Part shown: in pieces, positions 24,299-28,213 of the stretch
How the letters are laid out: each line of letters begins with the position of its first letter
How positions within the stretch are numbered: the stretch's first letter is position 1
DNA from: Tateyamaria sp. ANG-S1
GTDB taxonomy: Bacteria > Pseudomonadota > Alphaproteobacteria > Rhodobacterales > Rhodobacteraceae
Assembly: GCF_000814025.1 (NCBI RefSeq)
Contig: NZ_JWLL01000004.1
Span: 62,001 to 126,000 of the forward strand
Reading direction: 5' to 3'
DNA length: 64,000 nt
Translations under genes and position numbers: made by a program
The notes under the pieces: generated by a model
Seen by the model: only the letters and a program-made list of their open reading frames with translations
What the model was told of the DNA's origin: nothing
The model's database searches: none

Positions 24299-26380
24299 TT
24301 ATTGCGCGGCGATCAGACCCATGCTTTCCAGCTTCAGCAGAACCTGGTGGGCGCAATTGTCCACATCCACATTCTCGGTCTCGACGCTCAGCTCAGGGCT
24401 CTCAGGCACGTCGTAGGGGTCGGAGATGCCTGTGAACTCCTTGATCTTGCCTTCGCGCGCCAGCTTGTAGAGACCTTTGCGGTCGCGACGCTCGCATTCC
24501 TCGATCGAGGTGGCCACGTGCACTTCGACAAAGGCACCAAAGGCTTCGATGTCCTCGCGCACAGCCCGACGGGTGGTCGCATAGGGCGCGATGGGCGCAC
24601 AGATCGCGATGCCGCCGTTCTTGGTGATTTCGGAGGCAACGTAGCCGATGCGGCGGATGTTCAGGTCGCGGTGCTCTTTCGAGAAGCCCAGTTCCGAAGA
24701 CAGGTTCTTCCGCACGATGTCACCATCCAGCAGCGTCACGGGACGGCCACCCATCTCCATCAGCTTGACCATCAGCGCATTTGCGATGGTGGACTTGCCC
24801 GAGCCGGAGAAGCCGGTGAAGAATACGGTAAAGCCTTGCTTCGAGCGCGGCGGCTTGGTGCGGCGCAGCTCGGTCACAACCTCGGGGAACGAGAACCACT
24901 CGGGGATCTCAAGACCTTCGGCCAGACGGCGACGCAACTCTGTGCCTGAGATGTTCAGGATCGTGACGTTATCCTTGTCCTCGATCTCGTCCGCGGGCTC
25001 GTACTGGGCGCGCTCTTGCACATAGACCATGTGCTTAAAGTCGACCATTTCGATGCCCATTTCTTCCTGATGCTCGCGGAACAGGTCCTGCGCGTCATAG
25101 GGGCCATAGAAATCCTCACCTGCGGAGTTCTTGCCGGGGCCTGCGTGGTCGCGGCCAACAATGAAGTGCGTGCAGCCGTGGTTCTTGCGGATCAGGCCGT
25201 GCCAAACAGCCTCGCGCGGGCCCGCCATGCGCATCGCCAGGTTCAGCAGCGACATCGAGGTTGTGGCCTGCGGGTACTTGTCCAGAACCGCCTCGTAGCA
25301 GCGCACGCGGGTGAAGTGGTCAACGTCGCCCGGCTTCGTCATGCCCACAACGGGGTGGATCAGCAGGTTGGCTTGCGCTTCACGCGCGGCGCGGAAGGTC
25401 AGCTCCTGGTGCGCACGGTGCAGCGGGTTGCGGGTCTGGAAGGCCACGACCTTGCGCCAACCCATCTTGCGGAAGTAGCTGCGCAGCTCGTTCGGCGTGT
25501 CGCGGCGCGCACGGAAATCATAGTGCACAGGCTGTTGGATGCCGGTCACAGGCCCGCCCAGGTAGATATCGCCAGCCGTGTTGTGCAGGTAGTTGACGGC
25601 AGGGTGGGCACTATCATCGTCGCCAAACACCATCTTCGCTTCATGCGCCTTGTTGGGCGTGTAGCGGTCGGTGACAGTCATGGTGGCGAGGATCACGCCT
25701 TCCTGATCGCGCAGGGCGATGTCCTGGCCGATCTCCAGGCTTTCCGCGAATTTCTCGTTCACGTCCAGTGTGATGGGCATCGGCCAGAGGGTACCGTCGG
25801 TGGTGCGCATCGTGTCCACGACGCTGTTGTAATCTGCTTCGGTCAGGAACCCTTTCAGCGGGTTGAAGCCGCCGTTCATCAGCAGCTCAAGGTCACAGAT
25901 CTGGCGCGGGGTCAGATCCCAGCTGACCAGCTCGGCCGCTTCCATCTTCAGCTTCTGAGCGCTGTCATACGAGACATAAAGCTCGGGGATCGGAGCGAGA
26001 TTGTTTTCCATCAATTTGGTCCTGTGTTTCAGGGGGTTTAACCCGGACGTGGTGCCGGTCAACTCGGCAAAAAGGGCATCATATTCCGCGAATTTGCGGG
26101 TGAGGAACTGATCGGTGAGCCGGTTTTTCTCTCCGGCCCCCCGGGTTGTGAGCGCATAGGAATAGCGTTGCCGCTTGTCCGGCGCGTCCACATCCTGAAC
26201 GCGCACGAACCCCGCCGCCGTCGCCTGCCGCAACAGGGCATTCAGACGACCCAGAGACACACCAATGCCTTGTGCCATGGCACGCTGCGACGCGCCCGGC
26301 GCCTCGTCGAGCTGACGCAGAAGACGGAAGAGCTGGTCTTCGGCTTCCGGGGTGGGTTTGGGTGCGGCGGACATGGGCAT
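24299..26380 (-). CDS. HTH regulator-ATP sulfurylase-APS kinase open frame
   Basis: One 693-codon frame covers three units. Residues about 10-108 match the EPS-associated MarR-type regulator (RAMAQGIGVSLGRLNALLRQ, YALTTRGAGEKNRLTDQFL). Residues 124-510 are ATP sulfurylase with QTRNPLHRAH (315-324) and GRDHAGPG (409-416). Residues 515-693 are APS kinase with Walker A GFSGSGKST (523-531). The enzyme pair turns sulfate into PAPS. The Sat-CysC part alone could start at ATG 26011 (MENNLAPIPEL), which has AGGA nine bases upstream. No stop separates the regulator from Sat; the linker is about 15 residues. Both a true fusion and two starts in one frame are possible. I would annotate 24299-26011 as sat-cysC with certainty. 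Confidence 0.85.
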   Translation of the reverse strand: MPMSAAPKPTPEAEDQLFRLLRQLDEAPGASQRAMAQGIGVSLGRLNALLRQATAAGFVRVQDVDAPDKRQRYSYALTTRGAGEKNRLTDQFLTRKFAEYDALFAELTGTTSGLNPLKHRTKLMENNLAPIPELYVSYDSAQKLKMEAAELVSWDLTPRQICDLELLMNGGFNPLKGFLTEADYNSVVDTMRTTDGTLWPMPITLDVNEKFAESLEIGQDIALRDQEGVILATMTVTDRYTPNKAHEAKMVFGDDDSAHPAVNYLHNTAGDIYLGGPVTGIQQPVHYDFRARRDTPNELRSYFRKMGWRKVVAFQTRNPLHRAHQELTFRAAREAQANLLIHPVVGMTKPGDVDHFTRVRCYEAVLDKYPQATTSMSLLNLAMRMAGPREAVWHGLIRKNHGCTHFIVGRDHAGPGKNSAGEDFYGPYDAQDLFREHQEEMGIEMVDFKHMVYVQERAQYEPADEIEDKDNVTILNISGTELRRRLAEGLEIPEWFSFPEVVTELRRTKPPRSKQGFTVFFTGFSGSGKSTIANALMVKLMEMGGRPVTLLDGDIVRKNLSSELGFSKEHRDLNIRRIGYVASEITKNGGIAICAPIAPYATTRRAVREDIEAFGAFVEVHVATSIEECERRDRKGLYKLAREGKIKEFTGISDPYDVPESPELSVETENVDVDNCAHQVLLKLESMGLIAAQ

Positions 26381-26402: not shown

Positions 26403-26455
26403 GTTCACGGGTGAACATATGTCACCGAAAGTTTGTTCATGGAAGAACAAACTTT
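26403..26455. promoter_or_regulatory. two palindromes upstream of the HTH-Sat-CysC gene
   Basis: Palindrome 1 is GTTCAC-GG-GTGAAC (26403-26416). Palindrome 2 is AAAGTTTGTTC, six bases, GAACAAACTTT (26428-26455), a perfect 11-bp inverted repeat. Both share GTTC...GAAC half-sites and lie 23-75 bases before the start codon, where a MarR-type regulator would bind to control its own gene. There is no T-run on the minus strand, so a terminator for the cyclase gene is unlikely. Confidence 0.6.
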
Positions 26456-26503: not shown

Positions 26504-28213
26504 TCAGGCCGGAGCAGAGGCCTCTGCCGAGGCTTTTGCATCGCGCTGCCGGGTATGTGTCATGTCGGTCAGATCCTTGACCAGCAAGGCGTCCAATGGT
26601 GCTTCGCGCCCGCGCAAGGAAAGCGATACCATCGCGTCGTCCGGGGGGGTCAGGCCCGCAGCGTGCAGCGCGTCGATCGACACAAGCGCCTGTGCCCCGC
26701 GCCCTTTGGTTTCACTTTCCAGCCGGGAAGCTATGTTGACCGTATCCCCGATCAGGGTCCGGGGTGCCTGTCCGGCTGCGCCAATCTCGCCCAGCACGAC
26801 GTTGCCAAGATGCACGCCGATCCCGATCGCAACCGGCGCGCTGCCTTCGCGTGCAAGCCGTGCGTTGAAATCTGCAAGAGCGGCCCCAATACCTTCGATG
26901 GCCGTCAGCGCCGCGCGGGCCGAGGCCGCCGCACTGGGCAGTTCGAACACAGCCATCAAACCATCGCCCATATACTTGTCGACAGTGCCGCCCGCCGCAT
27001 TGATGGGGGGCACAATCTCGTCGAAAAAACGGTTCAGCAGATGCACAACATCATAGGGCAACTGACCGTCCGTGCGGGCGGTGAAACCGCGCATATCCAG
27101 GAAAAGAACAGCAAGCTGCGCCTCCTTGCCCTGGCTGGCGTGTGCCCGGCTGCGCTGCCCGTCGCGGTCAAACACGCGGAACACGCGCACGCTGCTGCGC
27201 GGGCGCACCTGACAGGCCAGCCGTGCATTCGGTGGCGCGCCAACGGCGGCAAGACTGCGGGCCTCTGCCTCGGACGGGGGCGGCAGGTCTTCTAGCCCGT
27301 CTTCGATTATCACCCGGCAGGTGGTGCAGCGCCCACGCCCGCCGCACAGGGCCGTGTGAGCAACACCGCTGCTTTGCGAGGTTTCGAGTATTGTCTGCCC
27401 GCGCGGGGCGCGCACGCTGGGGCCGTCGACATAATGAATGCGAATGGGCCGGGCGATGGCGGCCACGGCGCGGCGCAGCAAAAAGGCCGCCACAGCAATG
27501 GCGAGCACCGCCCAAACGACCATATTGGCACGGTCCGATGCCGCAGCCAGTTGTCCAAATCCCGCCGGATCTGGCCAGTTCCAGGCGGCATGTGCCACCG
27601 CTTCGCCGCGCGGGTTGGACAAAAGCCCGTCAATCACCCTCGCAAATGTCACAAAACCCAGAAGCGCCAGCACAGGCAGAACGACACCCACGCCGATCAG
27701 CCAGGGCACGGCCTTGCGCCACCAGGCCGTCAAGCGCAGCCACATATGCAACCCGATGCAGCCATGGACCCAGGCGATGATCAGCAGGGCGGCTTGCCCC
27801 CAGCCGTCGCCTGTGTCCCAGATCAGGCGCGTGACATAGCCGAACATCGTGTTCACGCCCAGCATCTCATGTGCACCGCGCGTGTAGATCAGGTGGTCGA
27901 TCAGCAGGATCGGGATGGCCAGGCCCAGCAGGACCTGTGCCCATTGGGACAGCGGCATGCGAAAGGTCCGCGCCACGACGACCTTGCCCAGTGACAGTAG
28001 AACATGGGCTGCCAGTGCCACACCGATAACAGCCGTTCCTGTACCGGACCGGATGACGGCCAGCCGCGCGGACTGCACGGCATCATAGGCGGCAGGGGAT
28101 ATCAGGACCGCAGCCAGGTTCAGGATATGCAGCGTCAGGTAGACCATCAGGATCAGGCCGCTTGCGATCCTGACCCGCGTTGCCCAAGAGCCGCGCCATA
28201 TTGCGTGCGCCAT
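26504..28213 (-). CDS. membrane adenylate/guanylate cyclase with ferredoxin domain
   Basis: The 569-residue protein has about six N-terminal membrane helices (residues 15-245) containing several histidines that could bind heme (His29, 70, 107, 150, 156). A plant-type 2Fe-2S domain follows, with Cys290, Cys296, Cys299 and Cys334 (C-x5-C-x2-C-x34-C). A class III cyclase domain covers about 363-545, with FLDMRGFTAR supplying the first metal aspartate (373) and DKYMGDGLMAVF the second. It should make cAMP or cGMP in response to the redox state of the iron-sulfur or heme centres, which is inference. It is upstream of the Sat fusion on the same strand, with a 123-base gap. Confidence 0.88.
   Translation of the reverse strand: MAHAIWRGSWATRVRIASGLILMVYLTLHILNLAAVLISPAAYDAVQSARLAVIRSGTGTAVIGVALAAHVLLSLGKVVVARTFRMPLSQWAQVLLGLAIPILLIDHLIYTRGAHEMLGVNTMFGYVTRLIWDTGDGWGQAALLIIAWVHGCIGLHMWLRLTAWWRKAVPWLIGVGVVLPVLALLGFVTFARVIDGLLSNPRGEAVAHAAWNWPDPAGFGQLAAASDRANMVVWAVLAIAVAAFLLRRAVAAIARPIRIHYVDGPSVRAPRGQTILETSQSSGVAHTALCGGRGRCTTCRVIIEDGLEDLPPPSEAEARSLAAVGAPPNARLACQVRPRSSVRVFRVFDRDGQRSRAHASQGKEAQLAVLFLDMRGFTARTDGQLPYDVVHLLNRFFDEIVPPINAAGGTVDKYMGDGLMAVFELPSAAASARAALTAIEGIGAALADFNARLAREGSAPVAIGIGVHLGNVVLGEIGAAGQAPRTLIGDTVNIASRLESETKGRGAQALVSIDALHAAGLTPPDDAMVSLSLRGREAPLDALLVKDLTDMTHTRQRDAKASAEASAPA

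Follow-up and report, generated by a model that had tools for sequence, protein, structure and literature searches.

A gene on the minus strand of the window, by which we mean the whole 64,000-nucleotide stretch of DNA analysed here, joins a MarR_EPS-like winged-helix domain, an ATP sulfurylase (Sat) and an APS kinase (CysC) in a single open reading frame. The frame (24299..26380, minus strand) opens with an ATG at 26380 and runs for 693 codons, predicting a protein of 693 aa and about 77.7 kDa. We consider it quite likely that this one gene gives rise to two proteins and a self-control loop, in which the long form would bind its own promoter and most likely repress it. Over much of a widespread marine family, sulfate assimilation seems to have its first two enzymes joined to a transcription regulator of their own, with the regulator-enzyme and the plain enzyme both apparently coming from a single gene. 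The first-pass annotation of this DNA had read the frame as a winged-helix regulator followed by Sat and CysC. The 693-codon frame was confirmed, and the joining of the three parts is borne out by NCBIfam and Pfam profiles.

A regulator domain in frame with Sat and CysC

The winged-helix domain occupies residues 14-108 (26057..26341, minus strand). Over these residues the NCBIfam profile MarR_EPS (TIGR04176) reaches 80.7 bits on the 693-aa frame, just under its curated cut-off of 88. The score is 85.3 bits when residues 1-122 are taken alone, and some fused orthologues exceed the cut-off, for example that of genome G091 with 93.3. The fused gene is flanked by genes for a cyclase-domain protein and a PhzF-like protein, both named by eye, and does not lie in an exopolysaccharide gene cluster, so we regard its MarR part as a relative rather than a standard member of MarR_EPS. 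The gene upstream of the fusion (26504-28213, minus strand) contains membrane helices, a ferredoxin-like stretch (CGGRGRCTTCR) and the cyclase domain, all recognised by eye, and 18 of the 20 genus loci L001-L020 have a match to it in their upstream flank.

Behind a linker of codons 109-123 (26012..26056, minus strand), which is stop-free in 104 of 105 fused-type loci, the ATP sulfurylase extends over residues 132-507 (24860..25987, minus strand; PUA_2 plus catalytic domain) and the APS kinase over residues 515-690 (24311..24838, minus strand). The Sat-CysC profile PRK05537 covers residues 122-691 with 1048.8 bits, above its curated cut-off of 669, and Pfam places HTH_24 at 17-60, PUA_2 at 132-282, ATP-sulfurylase at 293-507 and APS_kinase at 515-666. 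The motifs NPLHRAH (318-324) and GFSGSGKST (523-531) are both present, and we take them to be the catalytic HxxH of ATP sulfurylase and the P-loop of APS kinase. In an alignment of 45 sequences, N318-H324, G523 and S525-T531 are invariant. The Sat-CysC part is thus predicted to be a bifunctional sulfate adenylyltransferase/adenylylsulfate kinase, making PAPS from sulfate and ATP. It shares order, length and motifs with the known bifunctional enzymes (PRK05537; 2gks, 3cr8, 1i2d, 1m8p). The best-matching stretches of all 36 solved sequences fall within residues 131-692, and none of them covers the DNA-binding domain.

An AlphaFold2 model of residues 12-131 (mean pLDDT 82.4) shows a winged helix followed by a long helix. 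Searching the PDB with this model returned MarR-family proteins as the best matches (best E 2.8e-5), and the model indicates that residues 12-131 adopt a MarR-type winged-helix fold. The full-length model is poor for Sat (mean pLDDT 63.4), with residues 118-140 below 50; the structure search was made with the MarR part.

The window comes from in or near the genus Tateyamaria. The fusion is widely distributed. It is present in 17 of 20 genus genomes, of which two others carry Sat-CysC alone (loci L018 and L019) and one has a MarR part broken by stops (L020). The family-wide count is at least 89 genomes out of 394, nearly all of different genera. The nearest named relative is Tateyamaria omphalii, with 98% identity over residues 12-131. 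We also collected 80 named loci, the best 80 of 335 relatives in the GTDB contig set as picked by similarity of the MarR part, which include Roseovarius, Octadecabacter, Sulfitobacter, Phaeobacter and Shimia. All 80 keep the frame open from MarR through approximately the first 200 residues of Sat. Among 385 genomes drawn from the class, a MarR-linker profile matched in 90, and the frame exceeded 343 aa in only two, both of this family; in most of these genomes at most 11 candidates were scored, so that the figure describes a sample and not an absence.

Between codons 20 and 670, no stop occurs in 104 of 105 fused-type loci, the exception being L020, where the MarR part has decayed. Four fused loci (L014, L015, L058 and L097) have one stop each within the matched stretch, outside this interval. 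Conservation across genus, family and named loci rules out an open frame by chance. Among the relatives, a stop or frame change between the two parts, which the first-pass annotation had named as a refutation, appeared only in the decayed copies L020 and L129. In the upstream DNA available for 43 unfused loci, no intact MarR gene was found ahead of sat; L129 is the only one of them with a MarR-like stretch, which is broken by stops. In both L020 (genome G005) and L129 (G176) the MarR part has stops although Sat is intact as a frame, and the region near the start has no palindrome, as in decaying fusions.

Substitution rates were compared along the frame. Over 136 genus pairs, dN/dS amounts to 0.089 in the MarR part, 0.052 in Sat and 0.016 in CysC; in the linker region it is 0.143 at codons 108-118 and 0.261 at codons 119-123. 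For 400 fused pairs drawn at random, the three domains give 0.154, 0.097 and 0.057, and the two linker stretches 0.275 and 0.493. These ratios indicate that the MarR part and the linker are under protein-level selection, and that the last linker residues, codons 119-123, are weakly kept as protein. The claim that regulator and enzyme belong to one real protein frame is upheld by this selection and by conservation across much of the family. Because no stop separates MarR from Sat, a translated MarR part must continue into Sat, barring an unusual end of translation.

An internal start conserved at the codon level

A Shine-Dalgarno-like AGGA (26020..26023, minus strand), made up of codon 120 (AGG) and the first base of codon 121, precedes codon 124 (ATG, 26009..26011, minus strand) by 8 bases. 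Translation from this codon would yield a short Sat-CysC form of about 64.1 kDa beginning MENNLAPIPEL. Codon 120 is AGG in 102 of 103 fused genes and CGG in the remaining one, in a set that comprises the fused genes without L020 and L107. By comparison, AGG makes up 34 of the 5345 other Arg codons of the fused genes. Out of 523 positions tested, codon 120 departs most strongly from codon usage, with 5.22 bits; the runner-up has 1.36. At codon 124, 98 of the 103 genes have ATG, 4 have GTG and 1 has TTG, and AGGA is found at -16 to -5 of this codon in 101. The 80 named loci, which overlap in part with the 103-gene set, have AGG at codon 120 in every case and ATG, GTG and TTG at codon 124 in 65, 14 and 1. 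Wherever codon 124 has lost Met, the replacement is another start codon in every case seen.

These features bear on the idea that a single long protein is made and the internal ATG is not used. The unbroken 693-codon frame would suit it. A constraint acting purely at the protein level, however, would permit the common Arg codons CGC and CGT at codon 120, which is nearly always AGG. Codon 124 is always a start codon, and the changes from Met to Val all use GTG, in 14 of 14 cases among the named loci and 4 of 4 among the 103 genes. We judge a long-only product very improbable. From the conservation of the AGG and of a start codon at 124, we infer that one gene probably makes both MarR-Sat-CysC and Sat-CysC. 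The internal ATG at 26011 with its AGGA, which had been offered as an alternative to the fusion, is present and conserved at the level of synonymous codons, but it does not replace the fusion, since both hold together.

The start of the long form looks different. Taking as its start codon the most upstream in-frame one after the palindrome described below, AGGA precedes it in 1 of 101 genes, some AGG, GGA or GAG in 60, and none of these in 40. L012 lacks a usual start codon between the palindrome and codon 15. The ribosome site of the long form is much weaker than the internal one, which suggests that more of the short form than of the long may be made.

The same imbalance might be taken to mean that only the short Sat-CysC is made, behind a MarR stretch that is a leader, either untranslated or a relic, and open by chance: the internal ribosome site and start are strong and conserved, that of the long form is weak, and 44 of the 148 rows of our trees manage without an intact MarR part. 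Such a leader would hardly keep a genus dN/dS of 0.089 in its MarR part and 0.143 over codons 108-118, nor an open frame in 104 of 105 fused-type and 80 of 80 named loci. The true relics, L020 and L129, differ from it in having stops and in lacking a palindrome near the start. We therefore regard a short-form-only gene as very improbable, and retain the reading with two products.

An in-frame internal start is known from a related bacterium. The part of the literature on AerR of Rhodobacter capsulatus considered here describes long and short isoforms, the short one from an in-frame internal start after a ribosome site, tested by silent changes (PMC6199135). AerR, a regulator from the same order, resembles the fused gene in this respect, and its example indicates that such a start works in a relative; it differs in being a cobalamin-binding photoreceptor that acts via CrtJ, rather than an enzyme that has a DNA-binding domain of its own.

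Palindromes that accompany the MarR part

One or two palindromes of the form GTTC-N6-GAAC precede the fused gene. In the window, the proximal one, a candidate operator, is at 26403..26416 (G000:C27:88403-88416), and the distal one, a candidate second operator inside AAAGTTTGTTC...GAACAAACTTT, is at 26435..26448 (G000:C27:88435-88448), 32 bp from the proximal; neither is assigned to a strand. Within 220 bp before codon 15, the palindrome is present in 103 of 105 fused-type loci, and it is missing from L052, which meets a contig end, and from L020, with its decayed MarR part. All 80 named loci carry it. None of the 43 unfused loci, mostly the best-scoring ones and not a random draw, has it within 600 bp upstream; a search out to 1000 bp gave single sites at -786 in L145, which is unfused, and at -783 in L020. 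In a scan of 2304 dyads, GTTC-N6-GAAC ranks first, with 103 of 103 fused loci once L020 and L052 are set aside, compared with none of the 43 unfused loci, and it occurs in 67 of 20600 shuffled sequences. The consensus of the proximal palindrome is GTTCA-N4-TGAAC, and in 102 loci this palindrome ends 34-74 bp ahead of codon 15. Two or more sites are found in 34 of the 105 loci, spaced by 32 bp in 23 of those 34. A scan with the sigma-70 consensus found no promoter.

On protein and DNA trees, fused and unfused sat genes are intermixed. The fusion label needs 31 changes on the DNA tree, of which supported branches force 19. Among independent supported pairs, the palindrome goes with the fusion in 19 of 19 on this tree (sign test, p 3.8e-6) and in 4 of 4 on the protein tree. 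We relied on the DNA tree because the Sat protein tree is weak, with only these 4 supported pairs; both are quick searches assessed by SH-aLRT alone, with no bootstrap, and 36 rows of the DNA tree are flagged for uneven composition. The genus-mates L018 and L019 lack both the MarR domain and the palindromes, and have the same neighbours as the fused gene in the window, so that MarR part and palindrome are present or absent together at one identical place. This pattern indicates that an intact MarR domain and the palindrome are tied, and the palindromes give the strongest support for a DNA-binding domain that is still functional.

On a MarR tree built from few columns, the fused domains group together (SH-aLRT 85). 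This grouping favours a single fusion followed by many joint losses of MarR part and palindromes. In L107 (genome G314), MarR, Sat and CysC are linked differently within one frame: the linker is longer, the locus has two palindromes of its own, and GAGGACAGTCTC-ATG precedes Sat. On the MarR tree, the MarR part of L107 lies outside both groups, on a long unsupported branch, and L107 may represent a second, independent fusion.

Standalone MarR_EPS genes of the family share the site. Twelve of 23 have the strict palindrome upstream and a further 7 a variant (19 of 23 in total), where shuffling leads one to expect the strict form in 0.04 of 23. Like the fused part, these regulators combine a winged helix, a long closing helix and a promoter palindrome. 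This sharing matters for the possibility that another regulator reads the palindromes and the fused winged helix only pairs subunits. MarR folds also dimerise, and sites of the same pattern occur elsewhere in the genus genomes above the control level, both of which would fit. Against this stand the palindrome following the intact MarR domain in all 19 independent supported pairs, the same palindrome at standalone MarR_EPS genes, and the window's own genome, in which the only MarR_EPS match is the fused gene itself. We hold a separate reader to be quite improbable, and infer that the long form itself binds the palindromes.

Whether binding would repress the gene is a further point. The long form might instead activate its own gene, or act on other genes in addition or instead. 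The promoter scan placed no transcription start, and two or more sites are present in 34 of 105 loci. With one pattern, the window's genome has 9 sites versus 2 for a reversed-pattern control; in 20 genus genomes, GTTCA-N4-TGAAC gives 101 sites versus 34 in total for the control, approximately 17 of the 101 belonging to fused genes. On the other hand, the short distance between the proximal palindrome and the long start (34-74 bp to codon 15 in 102 loci) suits blocking. Moreover, 6 of the 7 other sites in the window's genome lie inside gene-like frames, judged by eye, and 11 of 12 other genus sites that we viewed lie in an open frame of at least 100 aa, although this is a weak test. Some of the excess sites repeat in shared coding sequence. 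Genome G017 has a single proximal-type site, and its fused gene (L009) has one. Activation or action elsewhere is, in our estimate, unlikely, and repression of its own gene is the effect that we favour. In G010 and G012, the two genomes that lack MarR, sites are not in excess (6 versus 7 for the control), but G005, with its decayed MarR part, has 5 versus 0. The fused gene itself is thus the clear candidate target, and further targets may exist. One site of the window's own genome (L156, G000:C29:47465-47478) lies between a HipA-like and a resolvase-like frame, both named by eye.

A putative self-limiting PAPS synthetase

In the mechanism that we propose, the upstream start would give the MarR-Sat-CysC protein and the internal start at 26011 Sat-CysC, a bifunctional PAPS synthetase of the ordinary kind. 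Through its winged helix, the long form would bind the GTTC-N6-GAAC palindromes just before its own start. This binding would most likely repress transcription, limiting sulfate activation according to the amount of the enzyme and perhaps its state, and the short form would serve as extra enzyme beside the self-limiting long form.

A protein of similar layout is NadR of Enterobacterales. The sections on NadR in PMC12421817 describe a helix-turn-helix domain joined to NMN adenylyltransferase and ribosylnicotinamide kinase, and bifunctional relatives without the DNA-binding domain. An N-terminal DNA-binding domain, a nucleotidyltransferase and a kinase thus follow one another in the same order as in the fused protein (PMC12421817). 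Those sections mention no internal start in NadR, unlike the fused gene (PMC12421817). The DNA-binding and enzyme families and the pathway are different, so that the two proteins would work alike without being homologous. NadR represses other NAD genes, whereas the only target that we could recognise here is the fused gene itself. By analogy with NadR, we suggest that a PAPS synthetase here binds and probably represses its own promoter.

As a guess, the ligands of Sat and CysC (ATP, APS, PAPS) might tune DNA binding, as with NAD and ATP in NadR. Fungal ATP sulfurylase is inhibited by PAPS via its APS-kinase-like part, and we take 1i2d and 1m8p, the best-scoring solved relatives, to be fungal ATP sulfurylases. 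This inhibition makes a PAPS-dependent regulator thinkable, again as a guess. A more extended version, which we put forward tentatively and with some doubt, is that sensing falls to the catalytic domains: when APS, PAPS or ATP binds to Sat-CysC, the grip of the winged helix on the gene's own promoter would change, the ratio of long to short form, set by the internal start, would fix the set point of sulfate activation in roseobacters, and the module of MarR part and operator would have been lost jointly many times and perhaps re-fused once (L107).

A search of the open-access literature returned no report of a MarR-Sat-CysC fusion. A CysC/CysN fusion appears in a listing in PMC4921024. The passages of PMC9603854 concerning Rhodobacter capsulatus describe RedB as indirectly lowering sat, cysH and cysI, and no MarR part is mentioned in them. 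An open-access search by family names, covering titles and the openings of abstracts, found no paper concerning the MarR_EPS family. For these regulators, which occur in polysaccharide clusters, our results propose GTTC-N6-GAAC as a candidate binding site.

The standalone MarR_EPS regulators differ from the fused part in several respects. Those that score over the cut-off and are unfused lie in stop-to-stop frames of 119-217 aa. An ops-like GCGGYAGC is found 32-73 bases before codon 15 in 19 of the 23 genes, whereas it is absent from 103 of the 105 fused-type loci. On a Sulfitobacter plasmid, an RfaH gene adjoins a standalone MarR_EPS gene at a polysaccharide cluster. These observations come from L159-L180 and L021, which are standalone MarR_EPS loci, and from L304, and they suggest that the MarR_EPS operator and RfaH/ops may form one control unit of polysaccharide clusters.
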